This document shows, one piece after another, positions 282 through 43,022 of a stretch of 43,022 nucleotides of DNA. A model generated the notes under the pieces. The model was not told the origin of the DNA. It saw only the letters and a list, made by a program, of their open reading frames with translations, and ran no database searches. Every line of letters starts with the position of its first letter. Position 1 is the first letter of the stretch. This DNA is from a virus. The stretch spans positions 1 through 43,022 of the IMG/VR virus record IMGVR_UViG_3300025769_000239. One strand, given 5' to 3'. The translations under genes were made by a program, and so were the position numbers.

Positions 282-544
282 GCGAAATCCTACCAAATCC
301 CACCCGCCGACCCTCCGCCGGCCAACAAGTCAACCATCTACCCGCCGGCACCGCCCGCGACACCATCAAACGAGCCGCCGAAATCGGTCAGAACCTCAAC
401 CCCAACCTACGATTTGAGGCAGCCGCCCTCCTCGGATTGGCCCAACTCATCCACGACCTCGAACAACGCACCGAGGCGCACGCATCATCGATCCTCCGCC
501 ACCCACGCGGCGCCGACGCACAGCCCAAGCGCAGATTGTTATGA
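278..544 (+). CDS. Hypothetical protein upstream of integrase
   Basis: This 88-residue protein has no family I recognise. Residues 20-75 look helical (an AAEIGQ...AAALLGLAQLIHDLEQ pattern) and the last 20 residues are basic. Both ends overlap neighbours by ATGA, and the last overlap couples it directly to the integrase start. It may be an accessory or directionality factor, but nothing in the sequence proves that. Confidence 0.65.
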   Translation: MSEILPNPTRRPSAGQQVNHLPAGTARDTIKRAAEIGQNLNPNLRFEAAALLGLAQLIHDLEQRTEAHASSILRHPRGADAQPKRRLL

Positions 545-1704
545 GGACGTTCCAGAGGACACCAGGCGGCAAGCACTACTACGAATTCCGGTACCGGGGA
601 AAACCCTACAAACGCGGCGGATTCAGCACCGCGCAACAGGCCACCACCGCCGGCAACGCCGCCCGGCGCATGCTGGAGCAAGGCTACATCGACGAATACA
701 AAGCCCTCAGCAAACGCCAGCCCAGCCCCTACGCAAAACTCCAAGACATCCGCGACCACTACCGCGACGTCGCCCGCGCCGCCCCCAAAACCATCACCGC
801 CAACCTCAACAACTGGGACCACCTCCTGCGCACCATCGGCCTCGAACCAAACACCCCCGCCGACAAACTCAACCCCGCCGCCATCCGCAAATGGTACCGC
901 CACGCCGAAACCAAACTCACCGGCGACCAACTCCAAGACCGATCCACCAAAGTCACCGCCAACAGCATATTAAACAGCGCCCTCACCATCATCGCCGACA
1001 AACTCCTACCCCACTACCAAGACGCCGGCCTCAAACTCCCCGACTACAGCGACCTACGCCGCACCATCAAAGCCGAGAATTTTCATTTACCCCGCAAAGA
1101 CTATCATCCGCCCGCCCCCGAAATCATCGCCAACACCCTGCGCGACTGGGAACAACTCGACGACCGAAACCTATTTCTCGCCATCGGCTGGATCCTCAGC
1201 TTCGGGCTGCGCAAATCCAACGTCATCGCCGCCCACTGGGACTGGATCCGCCAGGAGCATGGCCACTGGAAACTCGACCACGACACCCACACCAAAGCCG
1301 GCACCGGCCGCCTGCGAATCCAAGCCCTCAGCCCCTACTTCAACACCACCCTCGCCATCGCCAGGCGCAACAACTGGACCACCGGCCCCGTGCTCAGCGG
1401 CGACAAAACCGAAACCCACGACACCACCTTCCGCCGCCTCAGCAACTTCCTCCTCGACCACGGCTGGACCATGCAAAAGAAAGCCCACGCCCTGCGCGAC
1501 TACGCCATCAGCTGCGTCGCCGCCAAGTACGGCATCTACGACGCATCACTATTCGCCGACCACGCCAACGTCACCCAAACCCAGTCAAACTACGCCAATT
1601 TCGTCGCCCAAATGAAATTCCTTCCCGACGCCCAAAAGCCCTGGCACTGGACCCGCGTCCAAGACACCGACCACGCCCCCAAAATTCAAATAGCCGTCGC
1701 ATAA
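541..1704 (+). CDS. int: Tyrosine recombinase (phage integrase)
   Basis: This 387-residue protein has the C-terminal catalytic domain of tyrosine recombinases: first Arg at about residue 224 (GLRKSN), His-x-x-Arg at 316-319 (HALR), a second His at about 341 and the nucleophilic Tyr at about 351 (NYANF). An N-terminal SAM-like core-binding domain covers roughly residues 55-190. It should integrate the phage by recombination between attP and a bacterial tRNA gene. A tRNA-Lys-like attP core lies about 270 bp downstream, the expected arrangement. It is longer than integron integrases and I see no IntI-specific insertion, so it is not an obvious candidate for recombining the cassette sites. Confidence 0.95.
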   Translation: MRTFQRTPGGKHYYEFRYRGKPYKRGGFSTAQQATTAGNAARRMLEQGYIDEYKALSKRQPSPYAKLQDIRDHYRDVARAAPKTITANLNNWDHLLRTIGLEPNTPADKLNPAAIRKWYRHAETKLTGDQLQDRSTKVTANSILNSALTIIADKLLPHYQDAGLKLPDYSDLRRTIKAENFHLPRKDYHPPAPEIIANTLRDWEQLDDRNLFLAIGWILSFGLRKSNVIAAHWDWIRQEHGHWKLDHDTHTKAGTGRLRIQALSPYFNTTLAIARRNNWTTGPVLSGDKTETHDTTFRRLSNFLLDHGWTMQKKAHALRDYAISCVAAKYGIYDASLFADHANVTQTQSNYANFVAQMKFLPDAQKPWHWTRVQDTDHAPKIQIAVA

Positions 1705-21599: not shown

Positions 21600-21712
21600 G
21601 GCAATGGGTCAGGTGATATTCAGGGTAATCCCGATGGAGGTATTTAGCATTCCAATATCTTCTGGTAGGAGTGGCACTAAAACCGGCCGCGTTGGCGTTT
21701 TGTGGATTCCAC

Positions 21713-21753
21713 GTTAATTGATATACCTCCTGGCGGACCAATACTCAGTTGGT
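21713..21753 (-). repeat. Array-end element, copy 1
   Basis: This 41-bp sequence matches the element at 29229 at 38 of 41 positions. Both copies sit at the 3' end (in gene direction) of a cassette array. It contains a GGAGG half and, in copy 2, a CCTCC-A-GGAGG palindrome. I interpret it as a remnant of the last recombination site or of the insertion boundary. Confidence 0.75.
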
Positions 21754-21759
21754 GTGCCT

Positions 21760-22464
21760 TCATAGTCCGAGCACGCCTTGGGCTAGCCGCGCTGCTGCGA
21801 TCTCGCAGTATTGTTCGTCTCTTTCGATTAGGATGGCCTTCTTACCCATGTCCTTCGCGGCGCGTCCGGTTGTGCCGGAGCCGGCGAATGGGTCGAGGAT
21901 GGTTTCCACACCATCCCCAGCCTGGTTGATGCACCATTGCATCAGCTTCACGGGTTTCTGGGTCGGATGCTGTGCGCCGTCTTTCATCAGTTCGACACGG
22001 TTGATGGTGCAGATTCGCAGAGCGCCTTCCAGATTTGTCCAGGCAAGTTCACCATCGCTTTGACAGATCCTTTGCCCCTTGTCCCAAACAAGCCATTTCA
22101 TTGCCGGATGTAATGCGTTCACGAAGTAGTTCCCACCCCAGATGATATGGCGATCCGCGCTCTCCATTAGCATTTGGATTTCCCACTGCTTCGGAGCTGA
22201 TGAGTCCCAGCCTTTGAATTCATAGGCTTTCCGACCGCCATGTTTCGATGTGGTTTGCTTGCCCCCGTCGCGTCCTATCCCATACGGGGGATCGGTAAGC
22301 AGTAGATCCACCTTGCCAAGCAACGGCACAATCTGCCGGCAATCGCCGTGATAGATCGTGATTCCGTCCTCTTGGTAGTAGGGAGCGGGCGGGGCACACC
22401 ATCTCAGTGGAGCCAACCGGGGCTCCGGGTCTGCGATTGTCGTTGTGTCAGATTCAGCTTTCAT
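21760..22464 (-). CDS. Beta-class DNA methyltransferase (N6-adenine or N4-cytosine)
   Basis: This 234-residue protein has the catalytic DPPY at about 58-61 (LLTDPPYGIG) before the SAM-binding DPFAGSGTT near residue 197. That order defines the beta class. No restriction endonuclease is nearby, so it is an orphan enzyme that probably protects phage DNA. The start was set at the ATG inside site A. The first 25 residues are encoded by the repeat (RLAPLRW) and lie outside the catalytic domain. It is the last cassette of array 1. Confidence 0.9.
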   Translation of the reverse strand: MKAESDTTTIADPEPRLAPLRWCAPPAPYYQEDGITIYHGDCRQIVPLLGKVDLLLTDPPYGIGRDGGKQTTSKHGGRKAYEFKGWDSSAPKQWEIQMLMESADRHIIWGGNYFVNALHPAMKWLVWDKGQRICQSDGELAWTNLEGALRICTINRVELMKDGAQHPTQKPVKLMQWCINQAGDGVETILDPFAGSGTTGRAAKDMGKKAILIERDEQYCEIAAARLAQGVLGL

Positions 22465-22500
22465 AGCGTTCGCCCGGCGGCTCACTTCGTCAGTAGGTGC
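22395..22500 (-). repeat. attC-like site A
   Basis: An imperfect inverted repeat lies between the 97-residue gene and the methyltransferase. The distal arm reads GAAGTGAGCCGCCGGGCG and the proximal arm GGTTGGCTCCACTGAGATGG (gene direction). The methyltransferase start codon lies between the arms. Confidence 0.7.
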
Positions 22501-22794
22501 CTATAGATTATCCAGCCGCCACTGGACATCAGCCATTTCATTCCGGTGTTTTTCCACCTCATCTATCAGGTCATGGTATAGCCACTCAGTTTCCTCACCG
22601 ATCCGCCAGCTACCGTCGATGATGTCTGCGCCTCTCCAGCACACGCCTTGCTTTTGCAGCCACTCCACAACCGCAGTGCATCGCACCATATGCGCCCACT
22701 TATCGGGTTGCACCGGCACGGCACCTACCAAATCGCCGGAGCCAATCGAGGATGCCGCTTCCTGCTGAGGTTCGGTTTCAGTTTGTTCGCTCAT
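22501..22794 (-). CDS. Cassette protein, hypothetical
   Basis: This 97-residue protein is not recognised. The first 25 residues (SSIGSGDLVG) come from site B. The rest is helical with several Trp and an EETEWLYHDLIDEVEKHRNEM helix. It starts by ATGA overlap with the upstream cassette gene. Confidence 0.65.
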   Translation of the reverse strand: MSEQTETEPQQEAASSIGSGDLVGAVPVQPDKWAHMVRCTAVVEWLQKQGVCWRGADIIDGSWRIGEETEWLYHDLIDEVEKHRNEMADVQWRLDNL

Positions 22795-22830
22795 GGTTTT
22801 CGCCTCTCTGGCTCAGCTTGGGTGGTATGC
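22721..22830 (-). repeat. attC-like site B
   Basis: The arms are ACCCAAGCTGAGCCAGAG and GATTGGCTCCGGCGATTTGG with outer box GGTAGGTGC (gene direction). The site overlaps the end of one gene and contains the start of the next. The extra unpaired base in the inner box is present. Confidence 0.75.
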
Positions 22831-23162
22831 TCTCTTGCAGCATCGAGCATCTCCCGAAGTGTTTTGCGTTTTATCTTTCCATACTTCGGAGCGTATCCGA
22901 TCCAGCAGGGGTAGCTGCCGTCCATAGACGGTGTTCCCGCCCATCTCGGCATCTCGCGGGCATTCGATTCCAGGTGGTCAAGTCGTTCGGAGTCCTTCTT
23001 TAGCTCGCGGATCTTCTCGACCAGTTCATCTTGCATCAGCTTTCCATAGGGGTCCCCAGCGGCGTCCCTGATTTCAAGCACCAGAGCCAAGAGAGGAGCG
23101 TCCGAGCCTACCAAACCAGTGGAGTCAATCGGGACTGCTGGCTGTTGTTCATTCTTTTCCAT
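22791..23162 (-). CDS. Cassette protein, hypothetical
   Basis: This 123-residue protein has a head encoded by site C (PIDSTGLVGS). A helical middle (DELVEKIRELKKDSERLDHLES) follows, then a compact C-terminal part with Trp, Tyr and Cys and an RREAREHT-like basic tail encoded by site B. No known family. Confidence 0.65.
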   Translation of the reverse strand: MEKNEQQPAVPIDSTGLVGSDAPLLALVLEIRDAAGDPYGKLMQDELVEKIRELKKDSERLDHLESNAREMPRWAGTPSMDGSYPCWIGYAPKYGKIKRKTLREMLDAAREHTTQAEPERRKP

Positions 23163-23212
23163 ATTCCTGATCTTGGTTTTCCGCCCTCTGACTCACTTCG
23201 GTGGTAGGTGTC
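23106..23212 (-). repeat. attC-like site C
   Basis: This is one of the best-preserved copies. In gene direction the outer/inner boxes read CTACCA|CCGA|AGTGAGTC on one side and GACTCCACT|GGTT|TGGTAG on the other. CTACCA pairs with TGGTAG and AGTGAGTC pairs with GACTCCACT with one extra base, around a 4-nt unpaired spacer. This is the attC architecture. Confidence 0.8.
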
Positions 23213-23454
23213 TTTAGTATTCGTTCATACTTGGCCCGACACGCCCTTGGCGACCTGTGGTTTCCATACTCTCGGTTCAGCATCTTCGATACCCACGGCC
23301 ACCCCGGCCATTGGAATTGCCAAGCGGCTTCAACTAGATGCACCAGTTGATGAGTCTCGCCATCATAGTCACTGACAGATGGCCACGGTTTACGCCTGCC
23401 AAGTCCATGGATCACTTCGGGGGCAGGTGTATTTGTTATGATGCCATCCTCCAT
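23149..23454 (-). CDS. Myb/SANT-like DNA-binding cassette protein
   Basis: In this 101-residue protein, residues 45-85 (FQWPGWPWVSKMLNREYG...RSPRACRAKYERI) have the spaced Trp and final R-x-x-x-A-C-R-x-K-Y of Myb/SANT-like helix-turn-helix domains seen in small phage proteins. The C-terminal TTEVSQRAE tail is encoded by site C. The residue 8-22 stretch is encoded by mini-site D. Confidence 0.6.
   Translation of the reverse strand: MEDGIITNTPAPEVIHGLGRRKPWPSVSDYDGETHQLVHLVEAAWQFQWPGWPWVSKMLNREYGNHRSPRACRAKYERILKTPTTEVSQRAENQDQEYGKE
23392..23430 (-). repeat. Compact attC-like hairpin, mini-site D
   Basis: A 37-nt hairpin with outer boxes CACCTGCC and GGCAGGCG encloses an inner AAGT...ACTT stem and a TCC-AT-GGA core. 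It looks like a site with almost no central loop. The CCGAAGTGA motif of the larger sites is retained. It lies inside the coding sequence of the Myb-like gene. Confidence 0.55.
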
Positions 23455-23675
23455 GTGGACACGCCCTCCTGTATGCTCATATACCTCACTGCGATCAGAG
23501 CGCAGTAGATGAACAGAAAGCCCATTGCTGGCACACCCCACGCCACGTTCCAAATGATTTGCCACCACGGAGCCATGTTTGGCCGGGCTTCCGTATTCGG
23601 CCACGCCATACACCTACCAAAATGGTGGAGCCAAGCCGGGATGCCGCTCTCTGCTGTGTTCGGTTCTGTCTTCAT
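23436..23675 (-). CDS. Small membrane protein in cassette
   Basis: This 79-residue protein has one strong transmembrane segment (about 42-66, IIWNVAWGVPAMGFLFIYCALIAV). The head is encoded by site E in a different frame from most cassettes (PAWLHHFGR). It overlaps the next gene's start by 19 bp. Function unknown. Confidence 0.6.
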   Translation of the reverse strand: MKTEPNTAESGIPAWLHHFGRCMAWPNTEARPNMAPWWQIIWNVAWGVPAMGFLFIYCALIAVRYMSIQEGVSTWRMAS

Positions 23676-23719
23676 AGTCTCAGGTTTGCGCCGTCTGGCT
23701 CACCGTGGTGTTAGACGCC
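23611..23719 (-). repeat. attC-like site E, with canonical outer box
   Basis: In gene direction the distal outer box is GTCTAAC, a perfect match to the integron R'' consensus RYYYAAC. The proximal box is GGTAGGT, one base off GTTRRRY. Inner boxes are CGGTGAGCC and TTGGCTCCACC. Confidence 0.75.
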
Positions 23720-23729
23720 ATCAGCTTCT

Positions 23730-24032
23730 CTAGCTCCTTGGCGCATTCACGCCGGGCACAGTCCGCCATGTAGTTTCCATGTCCGGTGAGAGTGTCAGCG
23801 CCGCCCGGTCGGCCTTGGTTTCGAGTGGCCGCAGGTCGTTCACGCCGCGAAAGCATATTTCGCTTGAGTTCACCACTTCACACACATACAGAAGCTTGTC
23901 TGCTGGAGTGTCCTCGTCATTCATTGCCTTACTCGCGCCTTTCACCCATACAATTTCCACGTCTCTATTGCAGTGACTCCACCGCACGCCTACCAAACCA
24001 GTGGTTCCAATCGAGAAGGTTGGCTCACTCAT
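23730..24032 (-). CDS. Cassette protein, hypothetical
   Basis: This 100-residue protein has a head SIGTTGLVGV encoded by site F. The rest has alternating strands, including a VEIVWVKG strand and a CEVV...CFRGV pair, suggesting a small beta fold. Not recognised. It starts by ATGA overlap. Confidence 0.6.
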   Translation of the reverse strand: MSEPTFSIGTTGLVGVRWSHCNRDVEIVWVKGASKAMNDEDTPADKLLYVCEVVNSSEICFRGVNDLRPLETKADRAALTLSPDMETTWRTVPGVNAPRS

Positions 24033-24076
24033 CCGCTGCGCCCATCGCGGGACAAGCTCAACGGATTGATGGTAAT
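23987..24076 (-). repeat. attC-like site F, partly degenerate
   Basis: The proximal arm is well kept (GGAACCACTGGTTTGGTAGG, gene direction). The distal arm is diverged, with a TTACCATCAATCCGTTGAGC-like match inside the upstream gene's 3' end. Confidence 0.6.
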
Positions 24077-24379
24077 CCGCTGGTTTTGATAGAATTCTTT
24101 GGTCACCACCGTATGGCCGCCGGAGGGCAAGCGATCTTGGTAGCGAATGGCCATCGACTCCAACACCAACGCCTCAACCATGGCACCACCAAGTATCCCA
24201 CCCAGGCTGCGAACCTTCAGGTTTTTGACTCTGGTATTGTCGTCGGAGTAGTAGTAGTCGAAGCCAGGATGGAACGTGAAGTCGATGGTGTCCCCAAATA
24301 CGTCCTGCTGAATGGTTTCGAAAGATGAACCAGCGGCACCGATAGCCGCGCTGCTGCGTTGTTCATTATTTTCCCTCAT
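24029..24379 (-). CDS. Cassette protein, hypothetical
   Basis: This 116-residue protein uses the ATG at 24379; an in-frame TTG overlapping the upstream stop would add 11 residues. A tyrosine-rich patch (DYYYSDD) and a beta-rich middle are visible. Not recognised. The first residues (AAIGAAG) correspond to degenerate site G. Confidence 0.6.
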   Translation of the reverse strand: MRENNEQRSSAAIGAAGSSFETIQQDVFGDTIDFTFHPGFDYYYSDDNTRVKNLKVRSLGGILGGAMVEALVLESMAIRYQDRLPSGGHTVVTKEFYQNQRITINPLSLSRDGRSG

Positions 24380-24420
24380 TGTCACTTTCTTTCTGGTTTT
24401 CGTTCGGCTCAATCGCCGTC
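24321..24420 (-). repeat. attC-like site G, degenerate
   Basis: This is a weak copy at the 5' edge of array 1. The GCCGCTGGTT stretch aligns with TCCACTGGTT of the good sites, and a distal GAGCCGAACG remains. It may mark the first, oldest site of the array. Confidence 0.4.
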
Positions 24421-24666
24421 CGCGACTTCGAGTTCTTCCGGGGTCATGGCGCGGTATTCCTCAAGGCGGGCGCGGATCCGGAGGACGCCATTGAGCTGGC
24501 CGGCGATCTTGTGAAGGGGTTCGCCGATGTGGGCGGGGTCGCCGATGTCCTGGGCGACCATCTCTTCCTCGTCGCGGAGGATGGCGAACACGGATTTGAG
24601 GACGGGGTTGGCAGCGGAGAGTCCGCCGAGGGCGGAGACGATGTCGTATTGAGTTTGTTTATCCAT
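24409..24666 (-). CDS. Hypothetical portal-linked protein
   Basis: This 85-residue helical acidic protein has a C-terminal RARLEEYRAMTPEELEVADGD. It follows the portal gene by 24 bp and has no repeat-encoded ends, so it belongs to the structural module and not to the array. A head-assembly role is likely but unproven. Confidence 0.6.
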   Translation of the reverse strand: MDKQTQYDIVSALGGLSAANPVLKSVFAILRDEEEMVAQDIGDPAHIGEPLHKIAGQLNGVLRIRARLEEYRAMTPEELEVADGD

Positions 24667-24690
24667 TTGATTATCGGAACCCGCACCGCC

Positions 24691-26847
24691 CTACCCCACT
24701 TCCTTGACGCCGGTGAGGCCGGCGAGTTTGTTTTCGCCGAGTTGGCTGATGGATTGTTGAAGGCTTTTCTCGTAGTTGAGCATGAGTTGCTGGAAGCGTT
24801 CGTCGGCTTGCAGGGCTTGCTGGTATTTGGGGTTCTTCTTGACGATGTCCCGCAGGAATTGCTGCTTTAGCTGGGCGGCGGGGTCGAGCTGGGGGTAATT
24901 GACTTCGTTGCCGGCGGCCATCATGAGGACGTCGGTCTCGACGTCTTTGCGGACGCGCTGGGCGGCTCCGTTGGCGTCGCCCATGACGGTGCGGGCCAGG
25001 GCGGGATCAATGGCGTTCATGACGGGGCCGACCATCTTGCCGTAGTCGATCATGCCGCCGCGATCGAGCGGGAGGGCGAACTGCTGGATGGCCTTCAATT
25101 TCTGCGTGGTGTACTCCATGTCGAGGTCGCGGACGTCGAAGGCGAGTTCGAAGCCGACTTCGCTGGCGGTCAACTCGGGGCCGGCGGCGGGGCGTTGGTC
25201 GCCGGAGATGAATTTGCGCTCGGCGGGGGTGAGGTATTGCTCACTGAGTTGCCAGACCTGGGCGAAGGATTCCTCGACGGCGGCCATGAAGAAGGCGGCG
25301 CGGTATTGCAGGCGGAGTTGCCAGGCGAGCGGCAGCACGTCGGCATGGGCGGTGCCGAAGTATTTGGCGGTGAGGCGATCGACGACTTCCATGAGGTTGA
25401 AGGCGAGCGCGGGGTTGCCTTTGGGGGGCTCCATGAATTCCACGCCTTGCCCGAGGAATTTCTTCATTTTGACGCCGGGGCCGGTGCGGTATTTCTCGCC
25501 GAGCCGGTTGGGGACGGTCATGGCGGGATTGACTTCGAGGTTGGACCGATCGACGAGCATGTCGCACTGGGCCTTGATCATGTCCTGCCAGGTACCGGCG
25601 ATCTCGGGCACGCCACGGCTGTCGAGCAGGCGGCGGTTGAGGCGCTCTTGCTGGTCGGCAATGATCGGCAGCTTGCCATGCCAATACCCGACCGGACCAT
25701 GCTTGGCATACAAGCTGCGCGGGGTCAGGTCGCTTTCGGCGTTCACGTTCGGGCAGAAGACGGTACACATGAGGCGGGGGTTGCCGCGTTCATCGATCTG
25801 GCGGTAGTAGGCCCAGACGATGTCGATGCTGTGGCTGTCGACGTCGAGGCGGGCGTCGTTCTCGTAGCCTTCTTCGTGGAGGTAGTCGGATCCCTGGTTG
25901 GTGGCATCGTCGGACTGGCCGGCGGTCTTGATGGCTTCGTCGACAAAGGCTTCGCTCCATTCATCGGTGATGATGTTTTCGCGGAGTTCGCCTTCGTGCA
26001 TGGGGTCGAGGATGAAGACGACGCGGGCGCGGTCGAGGTCGGTGGTGCTGCTGGGCCAGAAGACGTCGTCGCCGTATTTACGGGCGGTGAGGGTGGGCTT
26101 GTTGTGGCGGACGTAGGTGTAGGGGTAGGTGGCTTCGCCGGTGGTCTTGAGGCTGTCGACGAGGCGGATGATTTCGCGGTCGGACAATTCGCCGGAGCCG
26201 ACGTCGAGGGCGGCGCGGACGAAGGCGAGGATTTCTTCGTCGTCGGAGTCGCGCTCCAACAGGGCAGCGAGGACGGGAGCCATCCGGGGATCGCCCTGGA
26301 GTTCCTGCAGGGTGATGGTCTTTTCGATGGTGGCGAGGGAGGTGTCCCAGCCGGTCTGCAGCGCGCCGACGCCGCTGTTCAGGGTGTAGTCGGCGAAGAG
26401 ATCGAGTTCGCGCAACCATTCGCGGCGGTTCTGGCGGCGGAAGTGGTTGATGGTCTTCTCGGCGTATTCGGCGGCGTCTTCGGCTTCGGGCCGGCCGGCG
26501 AGGCCGGAGACGACGCCGCGCATGACGGTGGTGACGAGGGTGGCCTTGAGATCGAGGATGACTTCGTCGGCCTTGGGGATCCGGACGTCGCTGGCCCCTT
26601 CCCAGGGTTTGGGTTCGCCGTCGAGGTCTTCGCGGTGTTTCTTGCCGTCCTGGGATTGGCCGGGCCAGCGGGTGAAGCGGACCTGGTCGACGCGGTCGGA
26701 GCTCCAGCGTTGCTGGAGTTCGCCGCCGGCGGCTTCGTATTCGGAGTAGAGCAGATCGAGGTCTGGCTCGGCGGAGGGATTGGCCGGGGCCACGAGTTCA
26801 TCGCGGTCGCCGGCTCCGGGGGTGCCGGAGGAAATTGTATTTTGCAT
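24691..26847 (-). CDS. Portal protein
   Basis: This 718-residue protein shows the podovirus portal start pattern: an acidic leader, then PWEGASDVRIPKADEVI at about 80-97. Long helices and a wing domain follow, and the C-terminus is Gln/Leu-rich and helical (QALQADERFQQLMLNYEKSL). Length suits P22-like portals. It lies directly after the large terminase. It forms the dodecameric DNA channel at one capsid vertex. Confidence 0.85.
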   Translation of the reverse strand: MQNTISSGTPGAGDRDELVAPANPSAEPDLDLLYSEYEAAGGELQQRWSSDRVDQVRFTRWPGQSQDGKKHREDLDGEPKPWEGASDVRIPKADEVILDLKATLVTTVMRGVVSGLAGRPEAEDAAEYAEKTINHFRRQNRREWLRELDLFADYTLNSGVGALQTGWDTSLATIEKTITLQELQGDPRMAPVLAALLERDSDDEEILAFVRAALDVGSGELSDREIIRLVDSLKTTGEATYPYTYVRHNKPTLTARKYGDDVFWPSSTTDLDRARVVFILDPMHEGELRENIITDEWSEAFVDEAIKTAGQSDDATNQGSDYLHEEGYENDARLDVDSHSIDIVWAYYRQIDERGNPRLMCTVFCPNVNAESDLTPRSLYAKHGPVGYWHGKLPIIADQQERLNRRLLDSRGVPEIAGTWQDMIKAQCDMLVDRSNLEVNPAMTVPNRLGEKYRTGPGVKMKKFLGQGVEFMEPPKGNPALAFNLMEVVDRLTAKYFGTAHADVLPLAWQLRLQYRAAFFMAAVEESFAQVWQLSEQYLTPAERKFISGDQRPAAGPELTASEVGFELAFDVRDLDMEYTTQKLKAIQQFALPLDRGGMIDYGKMVGPVMNAIDPALARTVMGDANGAAQRVRKDVETDVLMMAAGNEVNYPQLDPAAQLKQQFLRDIVKKNPKYQQALQADERFQQLMLNYEKSLQQSISQLGENKLAGLTGVKEVG

Positions 26848-26974
26848 GGCGTTCGAAACTTAGTGCTCCCCAGCCCTTGCGGAACGCCGTGCAAGGTTGA
26901 TACACCACGGCCGGCGGTCCGTCAAGGGGAAGGGATTTCCAACCACGGAAGGGACGGAATTTACGGAAGGGGGC

Positions 26975-28789
26975 TCATTCATAGCAGACTTCCATGTCGG
27001 TGCCGATGGGTTGGAGTTTGGCGAGGGCCATGTAGCGGACGCAGTCGGCGGGGTCTTTCCAGGGGTGTTTCTCGCCGCCGGGTTCGCCGGGCCAGTGCTG
27101 GAACATGCCGATGATCTGGCGGCAGCGGTCGCTGACGAAGAGTTGCGGGCTGTTCATGAGCATGTCGAGGGGGGCGTCGGGGTTCCAGTGGAGGAGTTCG
27201 TTGATCTGGGTGAGGCCTTCGCCGACGCCGACGCCGCTGGCGGGGATGACTTCGACGCCGGGCTCGATGCGGCCACCGATCTGCTCGTCGACGGCGAATT
27301 CATCGACGAGACAGGTGCCGCCGTGCCGGGCGGCCTGCGGGTTGCGGCCGGCGCGGGGATCGATGTAACGGCACCAGACGTCGTCGCCGCCGGCGGCTTC
27401 GGTGTCGCGCCAGAGTTGCTTGTAGCGACTGACGCCGTAGCCGAGGGAGTTCTGGGCGGGACCGGCTTTGTGAAGTTTGGCGAGGTTGTCGCCGGTGGAT
27501 TCAGGGTTGGGGATGGCCCATTCGCCGTAGGTCTGTTCGTCGGGCCATTCGCGGTAGATGTAGTGGCGGCCGTCGCGGGTGACGCGGACCCAAAACATGA
27601 ACCAGTTGCGGCCGCCGGCGGGATCGACGATGAGGTAGTCGGTGCCGTCTTTGGGCAGTTCGCCGTGGGGGATGATGTTCCAACTGCCCCAGAGGGGGAA
27701 GGGTTTGCCGCTGGTCTTGCGGGTGTAGCCGTAGGCGATGCGCTGGATGTATTCGCTGGAGCGGCCGGCGCAGTCTTCGCGGACGCCTTCGTAGAAGCTG
27801 CGTTGGCCGTCGCCGAAGGGGTTCAATGAACTCCAAAAGTAAATGGTGCGGCCACGGTTGAGGGCGGCGTCGGCGATGTAGGGCATGGTGCCAACCTCGG
27901 TGCCAGGGACGTTGACTTTGCCGGGGAGGAGTTCGGCGGGCGCGCTGAGAAGAATCTTGGGACTGTCGCCGACGGCTTCGGCGATGGTGGGGGTCATGCC
28001 GTGGATGGGGGTGTAACTCCAGAGAAGCTGGGCTTGCTGGAAGCGGAGGCGGCGCAGGAGCATGCCGAGCCAGTTGACGCGGAGGTTTTCATCGGCCCAA
28101 CAACCGACGGTGACATTGCCGGCGCGGCCGAACATCCAGCCTTCGCAGTCGTTGGGATCCTGGTTGTAGGTTTTGAAGTGAAGTTTGGTGCCATTGGGGA
28201 GCTGGCACATGCCATCGCTGAAGCCGTGGTGATCGGAGTATTTTATGTAAAACTTGGGGGAGCGTTTGCCGTTCAGGGCTTTCCATTCTTTGGGCAGGTA
28301 GTGCCAGATGATGGCTTGTTGGGTTTGGATGGAGGTCTTTTCGTTCTCGGCGAGGCAGAGGATGTTGGAGCGGGGATTGGCGACGGCGGACTTGATGGTG
28401 CGCCAGCCGGCGTAGCGGGATTTACCGGAGCGATTGCCGCCGAGGAGGATGAGGAAAAGGAGAGGGTTGGGAGAAGGACTCGCGACCGAGGTGGATTGGG
28501 TGAGCGTGGGACTGGGCTGGCAATCGGGATCGGCTTGAGTGGAGGCAGTGATGGTATCGAGGGCGGTGGTGGTGGGGATGTGGCCTTCAAGGAGGGCGTC
28601 GGCGTCGGCCCAGTGGGGGAGCGGTGGCTCGTGGTTGAAGGGATCTTCCTGGGCGTTGGCGATGAGTTCCTCGCGGGCGACGTAGGCTTCAGCGAGGGCG
28701 GCCATGCCCTCCTCGGTGGACATGAGGAGGGCTTGTTCGGCCTCGGAATACCACGGAATGAGGGGGTAGTTGGTGGGGTTCAGATCCAT
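26975..28789 (-). CDS. terL: Terminase large subunit
   Basis: This 604-residue protein has a Walker A GGNRSGKS at about 117-124 and a C-terminal nuclease half containing YLIVDPAGGRN (metal-binding Asp) near residue 390. It is the ATPase/nuclease motor that packages and cuts phage DNA. A 30-residue Thr/Ser/Pro-rich low-complexity stretch at about 75-110 just before Walker A is unusual. The gene overlaps the upstream small-subunit candidate by 10 bp. Confidence 0.9.
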   Translation of the reverse strand: MDLNPTNYPLIPWYSEAEQALLMSTEEGMAALAEAYVAREELIANAQEDPFNHEPPLPHWADADALLEGHIPTTTALDTITASTQADPDCQPSPTLTQSTSVASPSPNPLLFLILLGGNRSGKSRYAGWRTIKSAVANPRSNILCLAENEKTSIQTQQAIIWHYLPKEWKALNGKRSPKFYIKYSDHHGFSDGMCQLPNGTKLHFKTYNQDPNDCEGWMFGRAGNVTVGCWADENLRVNWLGMLLRRLRFQQAQLLWSYTPIHGMTPTIAEAVGDSPKILLSAPAELLPGKVNVPGTEVGTMPYIADAALNRGRTIYFWSSLNPFGDGQRSFYEGVREDCAGRSSEYIQRIAYGYTRKTSGKPFPLWGSWNIIPHGELPKDGTDYLIVDPAGGRNWFMFWVRVTRDGRHYIYREWPDEQTYGEWAIPNPESTGDNLAKLHKAGPAQNSLGYGVSRYKQLWRDTEAAGGDDVWCRYIDPRAGRNPQAARHGGTCLVDEFAVDEQIGGRIEPGVEVIPASGVGVGEGLTQINELLHWNPDAPLDMLMNSPQLFVSDRCRQIIGMFQHWPGEPGGEKHPWKDPADCVRYMALAKLQPIGTDMEVCYE

Positions 28790-29133
28790 GAGGAATTGGG
28801 GCTTGAGATACCAACCGATACTTCAACCGGGCGGGGTTCGGGCAGGTTTAGAGCTTGGCAAAGGTTTCGGACGCGGGCTCGAAATGCGGGGTAGATGCTG
28901 AGCCGATCCTCGACGGCACGGACGCCATAGATGACGGTGCCGTGTTCGCGGGCAAAGGCGGTGCCAATGGCGGTGTAGCTAGGGCGCGGTGCGGTGCGGC
29001 GCAGAAGCCACATGGCAAGCTGCCGCGCATGGGCCTGAGCTTCGCGCCGGCGGCTCTCCAGGAGAGCCGCGGCGGGAATTTGAAGCTCCTCGCTCACGGC
29101 GTTGACAATGGAATTGAAAATGGAGGGTGGCAT
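28780..29133 (-). CDS. DnaA domain IV-like DNA-binding protein; candidate small terminase
   Basis: In this 117-residue protein, residues about 28-85 match the C-terminal DNA-binding domain of DnaA: R-x-x-A-x-A-R-x-L-A-M-W-L-L-R, then Y-x-x-I-G-x-x-F and the signature EHGTVIYG (DHTTVxxx in DnaA). The ATPase domains are absent. It overlaps the large terminase gene, where the small subunit is always found, and no other small subunit is visible. So a DnaA-type helix-turn-helix may recognise the packaging site. Alternatively it is a replication or host regulator. Confidence 0.75.
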   Translation of the reverse strand: MPPSIFNSIVNAVSEELQIPAAALLESRRREAQAHARQLAMWLLRRTAPRPSYTAIGTAFAREHGTVIYGVRAVEDRLSIYPAFRARVRNLCQALNLPEPRPVEVSVGISSPNSSWI

Positions 29134-29178
29134 ATTGACTTTAATCCTACGGAAGGCAACTGGTGTTTTAATATCACA

Positions 29179-29207
29179 CGATAACGTAGCGCATAGTGCT
29201 GTTATCG
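29179..29207. promoter_or_regulatory. Inverted repeat upstream of terminase operon
   Basis: CGATAAC and GTTATCG arms are separated by 15 bp, with a further AGC/GCT pairing inside, about 45 bp before the small terminase candidate. It could be an operator or the packaging recognition site. It does not match the DnaA-box consensus TTATNCACA. Confidence 0.45.
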
Positions 29208-29228
29208 CTGTCGATTTTGGGTGAGAGC

Positions 29229-29269
29229 GTTAATTGATATACCTCCTGGAGGAACAATACTTAGTTGGT
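29229..29269 (-). repeat. Array-end element, copy 2
   Basis: This element is 38/41 identical to the one at 21713. The stop codon of the last cassette gene lies inside it. It separates array 2 from the terminase promoter region. Confidence 0.75.
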
Positions 29270-29590
29270 AGCACTCAGCCCCAGTTCTTCCAGTGTGTAT
29301 GTTTCAATAATCCACTCTCCAAGAGCCGCGTTGAGCTTTTGCAGTTTTCCCTTGTGGTTTGCACTTACCCTATCAGCTATCCGGTCTCGACTACCTGGAT
29401 CTACCGCACCCCATGCAGCCTCCATTGCATCCATTGCAGACCGCAGGGATTCTATATGGTCCGCGGCCTCGTTCAGGAGACGCTCCCATTGATTGTCCGT
29501 GAAGATATGTATGTGTGGATTCCGCAGCCGTGCTACCAAGCCAGTGGACTCAACGGCAGTTTGCGGGTTGTTGTTCGATTCAGTTTCCAT
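29261..29590 (-). CDS. Cassette protein, hypothetical
   Basis: This 109-residue protein begins with AVESTGLVAR encoded by site H. A FTDNQWERLLNEAADHIESL helix and a C-terminal helical pair (KLQKLNAALGEWIIET) follow. Not recognised. It is the last gene of array 2, and its stop is inside the array-end element. Confidence 0.65.
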   Translation of the reverse strand: METESNNNPQTAVESTGLVARLRNPHIHIFTDNQWERLLNEAADHIESLRSAMDAMEAAWGAVDPGSRDRIADRVSANHKGKLQKLNAALGEWIIETYTLEELGLSATN

Positions 29591-29637
29591 TTGATTCACT
29601 TTCGTTGTTCGTGCCGTGAGTCACTTCGACGGTAGCT
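29531..29637 (-). repeat. attC-like site H
   Basis: Well-preserved arms in gene direction: GCTACC|GTCG|AAGTGACTC and GAGTCCACT|GGCT|TGGTAGC. The outer boxes differ from other sites (GCTACC) and the partner changes to match (GGTAGC), keeping the pairing. Confidence 0.8.
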
Positions 29638-29948
29638 CTTTCTTGGCATGCCGTGTTCCTCTTGGCAGTGAGCATCTGCATGGTCGCTTCCACCTGCTTC
29701 ATTACGCTGTATGATTGGTCTAAGCCTTGCCGGTGTACGAGTTGCGGAGTTTCTGGGATTTGTGGCCGGTCCCTCGGGAAGCATGGGTCAACGCCTGTCA
29801 GGTTATATTCTGACACTCTCGCCGATTGCCATATATCACATCTGGCAGCCCACAGTGTTTCAATGAGTTCAGTCACTTCTGCCACGTTCAGAGCTACCAA
29901 GTCAGTGGACTCAACAGCGGCGGTGTGGTTTTCGTTTGGTTCAGTCAT
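29580..29948 (-). CDS. Cassette protein, hypothetical
   Basis: This 122-residue protein has a head AVESTDLVAL encoded by site I and a tail ATVEVTHGTN encoded by site H. The middle is helical with a Pro-rich linker (DRPQIPETPQ). Not recognised. Confidence 0.65.
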   Translation of the reverse strand: MTEPNENHTAAVESTDLVALNVAEVTELIETLWAARCDIWQSARVSEYNLTGVDPCFPRDRPQIPETPQLVHRQGLDQSYSVMKQVEATMQMLTAKRNTACQERATVEVTHGTNNESESNGN

Positions 29949-29998
29949 GTCGTTTCTTTTCAGTTGTCCGCGCTGTGAGTCACTTTGGCGGTAGACGA
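29891..29998 (-). repeat. attC-like site I
   Basis: Arms CTACCGCCAAAGTGACTC and GAGTCCACTGACTTGGTAG in gene direction. The site lies between the DpdA-like gene and the next cassette gene and carries the latter's start codon. Confidence 0.8.
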
Positions 29999-30628
29999 CT
30001 ACGCCGCCAGCAGTTCCATCTGCCTCTTGCCTTCGAAGTAGTTTTCCAGTTTCGTCATTCTTGATTGTTGTTCTCCATCGCGAAACCACCCGGTTCCGTC
30101 TACGGATTCCGCCCCCAAGTCATGGCATCGCCACACCCGGTCCATTGTGTTCACTCGCCCGACATGGACTCGGGAAAAGTGTTCGCACCACATTGGCACG
30201 GTTGACCATTTCCATTCGGTAGTTCCGCCCACAAATATTACATCCGCATCAGTGGGGACATCTCCCGGCCCCATGCCATCCTGCACCGCAAAGGCCAGAT
30301 CCCAACCGTATTGACGAGCCGTGGGCGCGTATCGATCCCACCGCTCCAGTGTGCCCTGTTTATCCGCCACCACATCAGGCACCAGCACCCACTTGGCATC
30401 TCTCCGGTTTGATCGGGTATCGTTCAGCATTTTCATCCAGGCGGATTCGCTCCATTCCGTTCCGTTCGTCCACGCCCCAAAGGCGTCGTTGTCCATCGCG
30501 AATGGCACCCACGGATACCACTTCGTTTTACGGCTGGCCGATGGACCTACTAACCACCCCACCTTACCGGGATATTTACCGGCCCAGTGGTGGAATGTCG
30601 CACTGCTGTGATTTGCTAGCATTATCAT
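29999..30628 (-). CDS. dpdA: DpdA-like tRNA-guanine transglycosylase family protein
   Basis: In this 209-residue protein the VLVPDVV near residue 84, the IFVGGTTEWK near 140 and the C-terminal HVGRVNTMDRV...GAESVDGTGWF fit the short phage DpdA lineage, related to tRNA-guanine transglycosylases. Such enzymes exchange guanine in DNA for a 7-deazaguanine base. It is coupled to queC (TGATG) and downstream of it, which supplies preQ0. A degenerate half-site of the repeat is visible in its first codons (FHHWAGK). Small enough that it may be the DpdA2 type. Confidence 0.75.
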   Translation of the reverse strand: MIMLANHSSATFHHWAGKYPGKVGWLVGPSASRKTKWYPWVPFAMDNDAFGAWTNGTEWSESAWMKMLNDTRSNRRDAKWVLVPDVVADKQGTLERWDRYAPTARQYGWDLAFAVQDGMGPGDVPTDADVIFVGGTTEWKWSTVPMWCEHFSRVHVGRVNTMDRVWRCHDLGAESVDGTGWFRDGEQQSRMTKLENYFEGKRQMELLAA

Positions 30629-31212
30629 CACTCCAGTGCGGCCTTTCGTTTCTCACACGCGGGGCATTCACCACATGGTTCGTGCGTGTCGTTGTAGCAT
30701 GACCACGATTGTTCAACCGGGGCATCAGGTTTCACCTTCAGCGTGAATTGGACTAGCTGCCGCTTGGTCAGCGATACGAACGGAGTCACCACCCGGCATT
30801 TGATTTCACTCGCCGCCAGTTGTTGGTTGAAAGCGCCGATCCATTCAGGGCGGCAGTCAGGGAAGCCTTCCGCATCATCTTGGTTACAGGCATACGCCAC
30901 AAAGGCGCATCCTGTGGCCTCTGCATGATTCGCCGCATGAGCGAGCAGGATGGCATTCCGTCCCGGCACCACCCACGTTCCCTGACCTCCGGTCAGCTTG
31001 CTTCCTAGGAGCTTTGGCAGTTGCACCACATTCCACGGAGTTCCTGTCTCTTCGCAGTGCCAGTGCGCCCATTTACGCTCCTTGCGTGAGTGATTGCTTC
31101 CGTAGTCGATATGCAGTGCTTCAACGATTTCCCCGGTCGCCCGCAGGTAGTAGAGCATTGCCACCGAGTCGAGTCCGCCAGATAGCAGTAGGAGCGTTTT
31201 CTTGGTTTGCAT
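30628..31212 (-). CDS. queC: QueC, 7-cyano-7-deazaguanine (preQ0) synthase
   Basis: This 194-residue enzyme has the PP-loop SGGLDS at about 9-14 and a C-terminal zinc cluster (C...PCGECPACEKR). QueC converts 7-carboxy-7-deazaguanine to preQ0 using ammonia and ATP. I chose the ATG at 31212 because the SGGLDS loop then sits at its normal distance from the N-terminus; an upstream in-frame start in site J would add 25 repeat-encoded residues. No folE, queD or queE is present, so precursors must come from the host. Confidence 0.92.
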   Translation of the reverse strand: MQTKKTLLLLSGGLDSVAMLYYLRATGEIVEALHIDYGSNHSRKERKWAHWHCEETGTPWNVVQLPKLLGSKLTGGQGTWVVPGRNAILLAHAANHAEATGCAFVAYACNQDDAEGFPDCRPEWIGAFNQQLAASEIKCRVVTPFVSLTKRQLVQFTLKVKPDAPVEQSWSCYNDTHEPCGECPACEKRKAALE

Positions 31213-31222
31213 GTAGTCCAGT

Positions 31223-31331
31223 CGTCTACCATGCCAGTGGAGCGAACCCCGGTCTTCGGCTTGCGATTGTTCTTCGAGTTCGTTCATGTCGTTTGATCTT
31301 TCGCGGGGTCGCTCACCTTTGCGGTAGCTGT
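31223..31331 (-). repeat. attC-like site J
   Basis: Arms CTACCGCAAAGGTGAGCG and CGCTCCACTGGCATGGTAG in gene direction. It shares about 31 bp (2 mismatches) with site L, running through the site edge to the start codon of the next gene. Confidence 0.75.
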
Positions 31332-31529
31332 CTTTGACTGTTTGGGTGATTCAGTCATGTTCTTGATTATCCCACGTAGCATATCCGCGCACTCGGGACA
31401 TAATCTCATCGTGAGCATTCTGGTTTCTATCACAATGACCCGATGGTCGTCTCTGGTTTGGCAACTGTTGCATGATCCGCTCTCTGAACTATTGGACCAG
31501 AATCCAACCACCCATTTTGGATATTTCAT
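31284..31529 (-). CDS. Small zinc-ribbon cassette protein
   Basis: This 81-residue protein has two CxxC pairs (CNSC near 17 and CPEC near 45) that should bind one zinc. The C-terminal tail AKVSDPAKD is encoded by site J. It starts by ATGA overlap with the membrane-protein gene, so these two genes form one cassette. Function unknown. Confidence 0.65.
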   Translation of the reverse strand: MKYPKWVVGFWSNSSESGSCNSCQTRDDHRVIVIETRMLTMRLCPECADMLRGIIKNMTESPKQSKTATAKVSDPAKDQTT

Positions 31530-31723
31530 TGTTCCCTCTCCGTCCACCATACCAGCGCAATCATAGGCAGAGTCGCTGCCCAGAATTGCCACGTCCAGAA
31601 TTGCCATCCAGCGGCCCCGCATATCCCTCCAGTCCAAACGGCATATGAATATCGTTTGACAGCTACCAAAGCAGTGGAGCCAACCGGGGTTGGCGGGTTT
31701 GCGTTGTTCGTTGTGTCTTTCAT
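31526..31723 (-). CDS. Small membrane protein, Trp-rich
   Basis: This 65-residue protein has a head PVGSTALVAV encoded by site K. One or two transmembrane segments follow (about 26-61), unusually rich in Trp. Function unknown. It is the first gene of a two-gene cassette. Confidence 0.6.
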   Translation of the reverse strand: MKDTTNNANPPTPVGSTALVAVKRYSYAVWTGGICGAAGWQFWTWQFWAATLPMIALVWWTEREQ

Positions 31724-31767
31724 GATTGTTCTCCGTTCGCCCGGCGGCTCACTTCGGTGGTAGATGC
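31660..31767 (-). repeat. attC-like site K
   Basis: Among the clearest copies: CTACCACCGAAGTGAGCC and GGCTCCACTGCTTTGGTAG in gene direction. The RNA ligase gene ends inside it and the membrane-protein gene starts inside it (ATGA overlap). Confidence 0.85.
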
Positions 31768-32310
31768 CTCCGCTTTCGGGAAGTCCTTGCCCTTGATTTT
31801 GACCATGCGCCCGTCTGGATGGTGCCATACGATCCCTTCGATGCCCTTCGCAGCGATGTAGTCCCGCAGCGCCTCATATTCTCGCGGGGCATCGTAAAGT
31901 TTATGGATGCCGTGCGGCACTAGCGTGTGGCGCTCGTAGTTCTCCGGGTTGCCTTGGATTTTAGGACCTACCAGCTCGTACGTTCCATCACTCATCCCAT
32001 GCGGTATCCGGAAGGCTTCCCGGTGGTATTGGTCCGCTGGACTATCACCCACCGGCACCCAGCCTTGCTGCTTGCCGGTGTTAGGATCGGGTTCAGTTGC
32101 AGCACGGAATCCCGCCGGGGGCGTCTTTCCTTTTTTCACCTCGTAGCGCCGCCACAGCTTCCCATCCTCCACCATGCAACAGGTGCCATCGAATTTCCGA
32201 GTTGCTTTACCTTCTCCTGCTATCACCCATTCCGCACCGGGCACGACTTCGTCTCTGACCCTGCGGTCTCCGTCATAGTTGCGTTGGTATAGGCTTATGA
32301 TTTTCTTCAT
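31720..32310 (-). CDS. RNA ligase, RLIG1 (DUF5565)-like
   Basis: This 196-residue nucleotidyltransferase has the lysine motif KFDGTCC near 37-43, then GWVPV near 82, an ELVGPKIQGNPE stretch near 112, LVPHG near 129, EGIVWHHPDG near 157 and VKIKGKDF near 170. These blocks follow the order seen in the RLIG1/C12orf29 family of 5'-3' RNA ligases. Expected role: rejoining RNA cut by host defence nucleases. The tail STTEVSRRANG is encoded by site K. The start lies just outside site L. Confidence 0.85.
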   Translation of the reverse strand: MKKIISLYQRNYDGDRRVRDEVVPGAEWVIAGEGKATRKFDGTCCMVEDGKLWRRYEVKKGKTPPAGFRAATEPDPNTGKQQGWVPVGDSPADQYHREAFRIPHGMSDGTYELVGPKIQGNPENYERHTLVPHGIHKLYDAPREYEALRDYIAAKGIEGIVWHHPDGRMVKIKGKDFPKAEASTTEVSRRANGEQS

Positions 32311-32320
32311 GTAGTCCAGT

Positions 32321-32426
32321 CATCTACCAAGCCAGTGGACTCAACAGCGGCCGTCGGCCTGCTGTGCTTGGATTTGGTTTCATTGTTTTCAGTTCTTCGC
32401 GCTGTGAGTCACTTCGGTGGTAGATA
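32321..32426 (-). repeat. attC-like site L with short leader ORF
   Basis: Arms CTACCACCGAAGTGACTC and GAGTCCACTGGCTTGGTAG in gene direction. A start codon inside the site (32383) opens a 19-codon frame that stops at the TAG of the outer box. The RNA ligase then starts 13 bp further on. Confidence 0.8.
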
Positions 32427-32853
32427 CTCCAGTCCCCGCGCACTGGCGGCACGGGCGGTATTCGGCTCCATCCTCCTGTGTCCACCTCCGGAGCGTTTTC
32501 CCTGATCCGGCACACTCAGCGCATTTGTCGGTTTTCTTTTCCCATTCCGCCATCCATTGAGTGTGATCATCTGGTTTGATATAGAATTCTCGGTGAGTGG
32601 CCTTGTCCATCTTACTCCAGTTAGTTTCTCCTTTTCGTGGGCCTGTCTTCTTCGTGGGAGCCACCGCACCCGCCACCCTGTAGACTTGCGTTTCCATTGA
32701 GCCCAGCGGGAGGCATTGCCATTGATACATCTTCCAATCCTGCCCCATTCCAGATAGCTCTCGCGCGTGTTCTTCTAGCATGTTCATATTCGTATCTACC
32801 AAGCGAGTGGAGCCAACGGCAGTTTTCGTCTGTTGTTCAGTTTTTGTGCTCAT
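32389..32853 (-). CDS. DnaJ-type zinc-finger cassette protein
   Basis: In this 154-residue protein, two CxxCxGxG motifs (CAECAGSG near 111 and CRQCAGTG near 134) form a DnaJ-like zinc finger near the C-terminus. The head TAVGSTRLVD is encoded by site M and the tail STTEVTHSAK by site L. The middle has several Trp and Lys. The J domain is absent. Function unknown. Confidence 0.7.
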   Translation of the reverse strand: MSTKTEQQTKTAVGSTRLVDTNMNMLEEHARELSGMGQDWKMYQWQCLPLGSMETQVYRVAGAVAPTKKTGPRKGETNWSKMDKATHREFYIKPDDHTQWMAEWEKKTDKCAECAGSGKTLRRWTQEDGAEYRPCRQCAGTGVSTTEVTHSAKN

Positions 32854-32902
32854 AGATTGTCATCGGTTTCCGTGCTGTGGCTCAGCTTGGGTGGTAGGCA
32901 CC
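32793..32902 (-). repeat. attC-like site M
   Basis: Arms CTACCACCCAAGCTGAGCC and GGCTCCACTCGCTTGGTAG in gene direction; outer box GGTAGA at the gene side and TGCCTACC at the distal side. Confidence 0.8.
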
Positions 32903-33183
32903 ATAGCTATCAGTGCGTCCACTAGCTTGGATCGGTCTTTATATGCCTTCTGCTTCACGTCGGCCGAGTATCCACCTCGTTCCACATCGATGTAGTCGAT
33001 ATGACGGTTTATCGAGTCTATTGCTTTCCGTATTTCGACCGCTATTGGTGCCGAACATGTCAGTGGAGCCAACGGGAGCTGCTGGCTCTCCGTTGGGTCT
33101 GTTTCGCCAGCGATATTGAGGGGTTTATCGGCTATCGCTGCCGCCCTCTCCTCCTCCACTCTCTTTGCCATTTCTTCAGTCAT
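32860..33183 (-). CDS. Cassette protein, helical, hypothetical
   Basis: This 107-residue protein has an N-terminal charged helix (AKRVEEERAAAI), then a repeat-encoded LPLAPLTCS from site N in mid-protein. Helices with RHIDYIDVERGGY follow. Not recognised. Here the repeat-encoded stretch is about 35 residues from the start, so this gene has a longer own leader. Confidence 0.6.
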   Translation of the reverse strand: MTEEMAKRVEEERAAAIADKPLNIAGETDPTESQQLPLAPLTCSAPIAVEIRKAIDSINRHIDYIDVERGGYSADVKQKAYKDRSKLVDALIAMVPTTQAEPQHGNR

Positions 33184-33227
33184 TGGTTCGTGTCTTTCTC
33201 GTCCCGTGGCTCACTGCGGTGTTCTGC
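33049..33227 (-). repeat. attC-like site N, long
   Basis: The proximal arm GTTGGCTCCACTGACATG and distal arm CACCGCAGTGAGCCACGG (gene direction) are kept. The interval is about 180 bp, longer than in the other sites, and the outer boxes are diverged. Confidence 0.6.
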
Positions 33228-33520
33228 TAAAAATGAATGCGGAAGTATCGATCGTTCCACCCGTCAATCGGGCATGAACCTACGTCGATTTTCTCGACCT
33301 CATACGTCTGCATGGTTGCGGTGTATCCGCGAGCGAATCGAACGTGCGTAATCTCGTCGCGCTTATCGAAAATCAACTTTCGCCAGCGTGGAGTCATTGC
33401 GCGGTATTCGATCCGCTTGGAGCCGCGGACTGTCTCATAATACCAGTGATACGTCAGCACTAGGTGGAGCAGAACCATACGGCTCACATCAATTCCTTTA
33501 CTCGTTCCTCGTTCAGTCAT
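33227..33520 (-). CDS. ASCH/PUA-like domain protein
   Basis: This 97-residue protein has the pattern HLVLTYHWYYETVRGSKRIEYR, then WRKLIF...VRFARGYTA and a final GW...RIHF. It fits the small ASCH/PUA-like fold in which a beta barrel binds RNA or modified bases. Phage versions are short like this one. Its start and first residues come from degenerate site O. First cassette of array 2. Confidence 0.7.
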   Translation of the reverse strand: MTERGTSKGIDVSRMVLLHLVLTYHWYYETVRGSKRIEYRAMTPRWRKLIFDKRDEITHVRFARGYTATMQTYEVEKIDVGSCPIDGWNDRYFRIHF

Positions 33521-33548
33521 GTGTGGTGGTTCACTTTGGTGGTTCACC
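33453..33548 (-). repeat. attC-like site O, degenerate
   Basis: A GGTTCTGCTCCACC stretch aligns with GGTTGGCTCCACT of the good sites. The distal arm reads ACCACCAAAGTGAACC. It sits at the 5' edge of array 2, right after the helicase gene, mirroring degenerate site G in array 1. Confidence 0.5.
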
Positions 33549-42506: not shown

Positions 42507-42602
42507 ATGAAACCCAAACCCACCATCCCCGGCGGCACCAACACCATCTGGCACCATTTTACCACCACCGAAGTGAGCCACGGTTGGTACACGGGAACGT
42601 AA
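42507..42602 (+). CDS. Small ORF ending in a repeat-encoded tail
   Basis: This 31-codon frame ends in TTTEVSHGWYTGT. The same TTEVS tail is encoded by the distal arm of sites in the arrays. It is short and has no Shine-Dalgarno, so it is uncertain. Confidence 0.35.
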   Translation: MKPKPTIPGGTNTIWHHFTTTEVSHGWYTGT

Positions 42603-42976: not shown

Positions 42977-43022
42977 CCACCCCACGCACACCCGGCCGCC
43001 CGCCGATCCCCGCCCGCGAACG
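42875..43022. repeat. Terminal direct repeat, right copy
   Basis: This repeats the first 148 bases with one mismatch (G at 42896 against T at 22). It shows that the contig closes on itself. Confidence 0.95.
42973..43022 (+). CDS. Start of the RHH-like gene (continues at the left end)
   Basis: These are the first 16 codons of the gene that is complete at positions 99-281. It is cut only by the window edge. Confidence 0.8.
   Translation, partial: MTTPRTPGRPPIPARE

Follow-up and report, generated by a model that had tools for sequence, protein, structure and literature searches.

In a normal integron cassette, attC lies 3′ of an open reading frame (ORF) that depends on a promoter, and expression drops with distance from that promoter. 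Integrons and CALINs (at least two attCs with no adjacent integron integrase) have been described in phages such as Tetrasphaera phage TJE1, and phage attCs proved usable by a bacterial IntI in the assay of that study (Qi et al. 2023, PMC9892861). The main text of that study makes no mention of start codons. Short ORFs are known at other integron sites: ORF-11 and ORF-18 of attI1, and those present in attC, can help translation of the next cassette (reviewed in PMC8876359). In Cluster K mycobacteriophages, the SAS/ESAS elements are conserved repeats with inverted arms found at the starts of unrelated genes (PMC3203893).

The phage array analyzed here resembles the arrays of Qi et al. in having attC clusters without intI and cassettes with DNA methyltransferases. 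In TJE1, however, attC lies 3′ of its own ORF and the next ATG falls outside attC, whereas in our array the ORFs are flipped and the ATGs lie inside the sites. We found no prior account of flipped ORFs with the next gene's start inside attC in the open-access literature, although one could have been missed. The short ORFs of attI1 and attC end before the gene, whereas leaders occur in every examined site of the array and are mostly fused in frame. One of them, at 32322 to 32425, is ORF-11-like and stops, as in attI1, at a TAG occupying positions 3 to 5 of the R box. SAS/ESAS differ from our sites in sequence and in their location upstream of the start, and recombination is not known for them.

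The phage genome and its array

The window, by which we mean the whole 43,022-bp record, is one viral genome whose ends (positions 1 to 148 and 42875 to 43022) share 148 bp at 99.3% identity. This overlap indicates that the record is probably complete and is circular or terminally redundant. Genes for an SU10-type capsid protein, a terminase large subunit, DnaB, and a DnaD-like protein identify a tailed phage. Two array blocks flank the terminase and portal genes, and the array genes, with the sites read alongside them, occupy the minus strand (Table 1). Between 22394 and 33548 we count 11 full sites of about 100 bp, plus 2 half-sites that each provide a start. On the gene strand, a full site consists of CTACCACCGAAGTGAGCC, about 64 nt containing an ATG, and GGCTCCACTGNNTTGGTAG.

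Table 1. Array features and the tyrosine recombinase of the window. CM, covariance model; VTS, variable terminal structure. CM E values are rough.
Feature	Coordinates	Strand	Gene-strand ATG	Reading frame	CM E value	Remarks
Tyrosine recombinase (PHROG 1 integrase)	541..1704	+				Probable prophage integrase, not integron integrase
Second array-end element (putative attI-like)	21705..21753	−				GGCACACC pairs with GGTGTGCC of last body
N6_N4 DNA methyltransferase	21760..22464	−				N-terminus encoded by site
attC site	22394..22500	+	22464	LAPL	0.19	Leader fused to N6_N4 methyltransferase
attC site	22723..22830	+	22794	IGSGDLV	0.086	ATG overlaps upstream-gene stop (ATGA)
attC site	23106..23209	+	23162	IDSTGLV	0.0036	
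attC site	23612..23716	+	23675	WLHHFGR	0.43	L box to L box 100% identical in G001
3′ half-site only	23988..24034	−	24032			Leader MSEPTFSIGTTGLV
Array-end element (putative attI-like)	29218..29269	−				CTACCAACTAAGTATTGTTCCTCCAGGAGGTATATCAATT; R box pairs with R box of last body
attC site	29531..29637	+	29590	VESTGLV	4.8e-4	
attC site	29893..29996	+	29948	VESTDLV	0.0018	
QueC (7-cyano-7-deazaguanine synthase)	30628..31287	−				~25-residue site-encoded N-terminal extension before usual start
attC site	31224..31329	+	31287		0.007	Leader MNELEEQSQAEDRGSLHWHGR fused to QueC
attC site	31661..31765	+	31723	VGSTALV	2.1e-5	L box to L box 100% identical in G001
RNA ligase 1 family protein	31720..32310	−				C-terminus STTEVSRRANGEQS inside next site
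attC site	32322..32425	+			1.8e-4	19-aa leader MKPNPSTAGRRPLLSPLAW ends at R-box TAG
attC site	32794..32899	+ (gene on −)	32853	VGSTRLV	0.036	
attC-like site	33049..33228	+	33183	LAPL		Long ~137-nt VTS; canonical R′ box GTTCGGCA; absent from CM matches
5′ half-site only	33520..33548	−	33520			Directly after dnaB (stop 33544); ATG opens 97-aa ORF

Four window cassettes gave a Pfam match, in each case to a product encoded on the minus strand. The gene beside QueC at 29999 to 30631 (minus strand), apparently the one called DpdA in an earlier first-pass annotation, had no Pfam or NCBIfam match, and its sole match was PHROG 15826 (function unknown). Elements that are putatively attI-like by their position end both window blocks as well as the array of a related phage, G001, and a similar sequence, judged by eye, ends the array of another, G005. 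Both window elements contain, on the plus strand at 21718 to 21745 and 29234 to 29261, a promoter-like TTGATA-16-AATACT aimed into the array and antisense to its genes, at the location expected of a classical Pc; the total from the promoter and terminator scan was not above chance.

No integron integrase is encoded in the 43,022-bp window. We rejected its tyrosine recombinase as the array enzyme because it is not an integron integrase. This protein had no detectable relationship to the integrase of the array phage G002, and a peptide-pattern scan found no relatives of it in viral contigs. Other array-bearing phages have unrelated integrases or are partial contigs, and we counted this, like the lack of IntI in the window, against our explanation of the array. 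Near the end of the record (42562 to 42579 and approximately 42930 to 42945), a 5′ half-site with a downstream ATG (ORF MSHSTGMVKLPDGE...) occurs on the opposite (plus) strand; it adjoins the integrase across the terminal overlap and is possibly a stray or decayed cassette.

Pattern scans recovered G001 to G004 (L002, L004, L009, and L012), which are nearly identical where they overlap, the two more distant array phages G005 (L005) and G006 (L008), and L067/L068 (G399/G400). Several of these relatives are contig fragments. L003, L006, L007, L010, L011, L024, L028 to L030, L033, L034, and L036 to L039 were rejected as chance or single half-matches. In G001 (L014 coordinates 3915 to 3956), a gene-less cassette body of 42 nt lies between perfectly paired R boxes (GTTAGACGCC...GGCGTCTAAC), and at L032 228 to 1657, in a Verrucomicrobiia metagenome-assembled genome, an IS110-like transposase ORF adjoins an attC-like site that reads VDSTVLV after its ATG.

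The sites belong to the attC type of a Verrucomicrobiota integron

The phage contig L068 (IMGVR_UViG_3300017766_003544) encodes IntI at its array end (331.6 bits). It has phage terminase, portal, and major head protein genes and, separate from this bona fide integron integrase, a phage integrase. The L boxes of the second L068 attC are different, but this site too holds an ATG leader (MPDPKTNLPAPEGCAASPCSAVG). Relatives of the L068 IntI are present in 78 of 289 Verrucomicrobiota genomes (E ≤ 1e-60), and one of these 78 contains a chromosomal array of 14 cassettes, L098. Our sites share with the L098 attCs the L boxes GTRGAGCCAAC and GGCTCAC, a length of about 100 nt, and paired R boxes. They differ in R box (GTTRGGC in L098) and in the VTS, which in predicted folds is 55% unpaired in the phages but structured in L098 (20% unpaired). 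All 14 ORFs of L098 are directed away from intI and are followed 3′ by attC, whereas those of L068 are directed toward intI; the phage ORFs are therefore flipped with respect to both attC and the array end.

A covariance model (R1) built solely from nine attCs of L098 led to the same conclusion. Its ten best matches in the window were 10 of the 11 full sites, all on the plus strand, opposite the genes, with rough E values of 2e-5 to 0.43. It also matched sites in G001, G005, G006, and L068, again opposite to the genes, and gave no match in TJE1; an Rfam search returned no match. That a single chromosomal array supplied the model was counted against our explanation. Because the matches lie opposite the gene strand, the genes are flipped relative to those of normal cassettes, which places the VTS, as an open loop with the ATG and leader, 5′ in the gene.

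The inverted L boxes covary, forming 198 of 217 Watson-Crick pairs in a register with one extra base (shuffled mean, 174; maximum, 188; 112 pairs in the contiguous register). As in attC, one constant base stays extrahelical, on the L″ side, and the central spacers are unpaired. Excision as a circle brings together R″ and R′ of one attC, so an integron cassette predicts that R boxes match across the gene body. This is what we found: positions 6 to 8 of the 8-nt R boxes matched across the gene in 83 of 87 cells (shuffle mean, 35; maximum, 52), whereas R boxes within one site matched in 39 of 90 (about 35 expected). The phage cassettes thus have R″ and R′ complementary across the gene and move as discrete units (see below), but the ORF of a cassette is expected upstream of and codirectional with attC, and here attC is on the plus strand and the genes are on the minus strand. 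The window has at least two attCs with no adjacent integron integrase, as in a CALIN, and does not hold the intI and attI of a complete integron; intI is present in L068. Counted against attC is that most R boxes read GGTAGNNN instead of the canonical RYYYAAC/GTTRRRY, although some sites have canonical-like R boxes (GTTCGGCA and GTTAGACG), as do L067/L068 (GTTCGCC).

Inverted repeats beside starts, kept across unrelated genes, would also be expected of phage translation or RNA elements like SAS/ESAS (PMC3203893), with shuffling due to ordinary homologous recombination between repeats. We consider this explanation highly improbable given the match to an attC covariance model, the fixed polarity, R-box pairing across genes and not across sites, intI at the L068 array end, and breakpoint homology of just 5 to 11 nt in two indels described below. 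Moreover, the 13-bp motif GGGATAGGAGCCC that SAS/ESAS carry upstream of starts was matched once at ≤2 mismatches, compared to 1.35 matches expected.

Start codons, leaders, and gene ends lie within the sites

In 11 of 11 full window sites, the ATG of the next gene lies between the two half-sites, and in 10 the ORF from this ATG continues past the 3′ half-site to enter the gene body. In the exception (32322 to 32425), the RNA ligase ATG (32310) comes shortly after the leader's stop. We extended the analysis to 31 nonredundant sites from five viral contigs (the window, G001, G005, G006, and L068). An ATG was present on the gene strand of all 31, compared to 17.1 expected from shuffles (maximum of 26 in 2,000 trials), and on the antisense strand of 16 (17.4 expected). 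Most leaders are 16 to 23 codons long. In the 25 leaders whose frame extends 60 nt or more into the body, the three reading frames at the L′ box are used 12, 9, and 4 times. The stop codons of at least eight window array genes fall within the next site, a half-site, or an array-end element.

The first-pass annotation had reported that most cassette sites hold the next gene's start in three frames, and this observation is real. The usual leader is slightly longer than the 10 to 20 codons given there. The three readings of the repeat were recovered (VESTGLV, VGSTALV, and IDSTGLV; WLHHFGR and SLHWHGR; LAPLTC, LAPLRW, and LSPLAW followed by a stop), as were the gene ends reading TTEVSRRA, found in RNA ligase (stop at 31720), with TTEVTHSAKN at another gene end (stop at 32389). 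The view that DNA structure, not peptide, is conserved is borne out by the covarying L-box arms and by one DNA being read in three frames.

Translation also appears to start in the site, as had been proposed, judging from coding signals. The leaders show codon periodicity, with G at 38% of first and 13% of second codon positions (χ2 = 83.7; frame-permutation P < 0.0005 for 25 leaders, a value that is approximate because the leaders are partly related by descent). Homologous leader pairs have few differences. An open frame spans the whole gene body, from one R box to the other, in 21 of 30 cases on the gene strand and 9 of 30 on the antisense strand, so that a separate start region could hardly be accommodated. 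These two signals, together with the ATG excess confined to the gene strand, make it distinctly unlikely that the ATGs are incidental, that ORFs begin inside bodies, and that the frame is open across the site simply because stops are sparse, even though plausible starts outside the site exist at M26 of the QueC ORF and at the RNA ligase ATG.

The L stem forms in 25 of 31 sites in predicted RNA folds, which leave the ATG region about 62% unpaired. We rejected the idea that the VTS is specially unstructured for its composition, because its unpaired fraction (0.552) is not above that of mononucleotide shuffles (0.551); its openness reflects T-poor composition, not base order. A VTS with a stop in each of the three frames was no commoner than chance either (4 versus 5.6 expected), and we rejected such stops as a designed feature.

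Cassettes move with their own start

Two cassettes are common to the window and G001 at 99.1 to 99.4% identity over 455 to 520 bp, and their L-box-to-L-box core and body have 100% aligned identity. The surrounding DNA is otherwise unrelated, apart from short matches at sites and a single 231-bp body in common. Each of the two cassettes extends from the 5′ half of its own site into the 5′ half of the following one. Two G001 cassettes are missing from G004. The large blocks that these two contigs share are 99.97 to 100% identical, and both indel junctions map to a CTACC present in both, where identity spans 5 and 11 nt. The breakpoint was at the 5′ half-site in every clean move, namely, the two window/G001 cassettes, a G399/G400 cassette, and the two indels. 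These breakpoints indicate that the moving unit is the site, ATG, leader, and downstream gene, so that a newcomer brings its own start. At one such junction, the body of the upstream gene is retained and its tail changes from GWATTKVTHSSE to GWATANVSHRMETEQ, each ending in a stop, where the frame enters the site.

Leaders and bodies have also been re-paired. In three instances a leader recurs on different bodies, and in one a body recurs under another leader, at 91 to 97% identity. The QueC leader (31224..31329) is on a different gene, a 95-aa ORF, in G001 (96%); the leader at window position 22794 is on another G001 gene (G001 5189; 91%); and within G001, one leader is duplicated over different bodies. 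Such re-pairing implies that both half-sites have exchanged, the 3′-half exchanges apparently being older events. These four exchanges at the 3′ half are unpredicted by a single-cut IntI model and were counted against the attC reading.

The re-paired leaders, which are in frame on their different bodies, are what would be expected if, as the first-pass annotation held, the site stayed with the upstream side and incoming bodies were inserted after it, fused to the resident leader. However, three shared cassettes and two indels shift site and gene together, and we regard this model as unlikely. The claim that the resident upstream site supplies the newcomer's leader is therefore not supported, as stated, by the clean moves. 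Its corollary, that any newcomer is expressed as a fusion, survives in part: most leaders are fused in frame and older re-pairing occurred, but a newcomer brings its own start.

Discussion

We conclude, with a probability of roughly 0.77, that the array is a phage CALIN with attCs of a Verrucomicrobiota-integron type, in which the ORFs are flipped, attC lies 5′ of the gene, and the VTS carries the start and leader. According to this model, the R-box and L-box arms would form the recombination hairpin, and the VTS of about 64 nt would have become an open loop containing the next gene's start, the leader, and usually the previous gene's stop. The ATGA or near-ATGA overlaps that are often present should couple translation of neighboring genes. 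The leader ATG would be the start used in vivo, and we infer that IntI from the host or a coinfecting phage drives exchange on single-stranded DNA. The similarity of the attCs points to a putative Verrucomicrobiota host.

A more far-reaching and tentative extension, which we think somewhat less likely to be right than wrong, is that attC has been remade as a translation adaptor. The VTS would then be an exchangeable, exon-like module coding for the C-terminus of one protein and the N-terminus of its neighbor, both half-sites would reassort leaders and bodies, and protein ends would be exchanged routinely through a site-specific system.

The array links phage accessory genes to the attC type of a Verrucomicrobiota integron. 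Every examined site would bring its own translation start, usually coupled to the previous gene, and if the sites are used as we propose, how well a newcomer is expressed should be less dependent on its position. The phage could then swap anti-restriction genes, such as those for QueC and the methyltransferase, with no promoter needed per cassette, and protein termini would be exchanged through recombination. A DNA-shuffling signal would thus double as translation punctuation, marking where one protein ends and the next begins.
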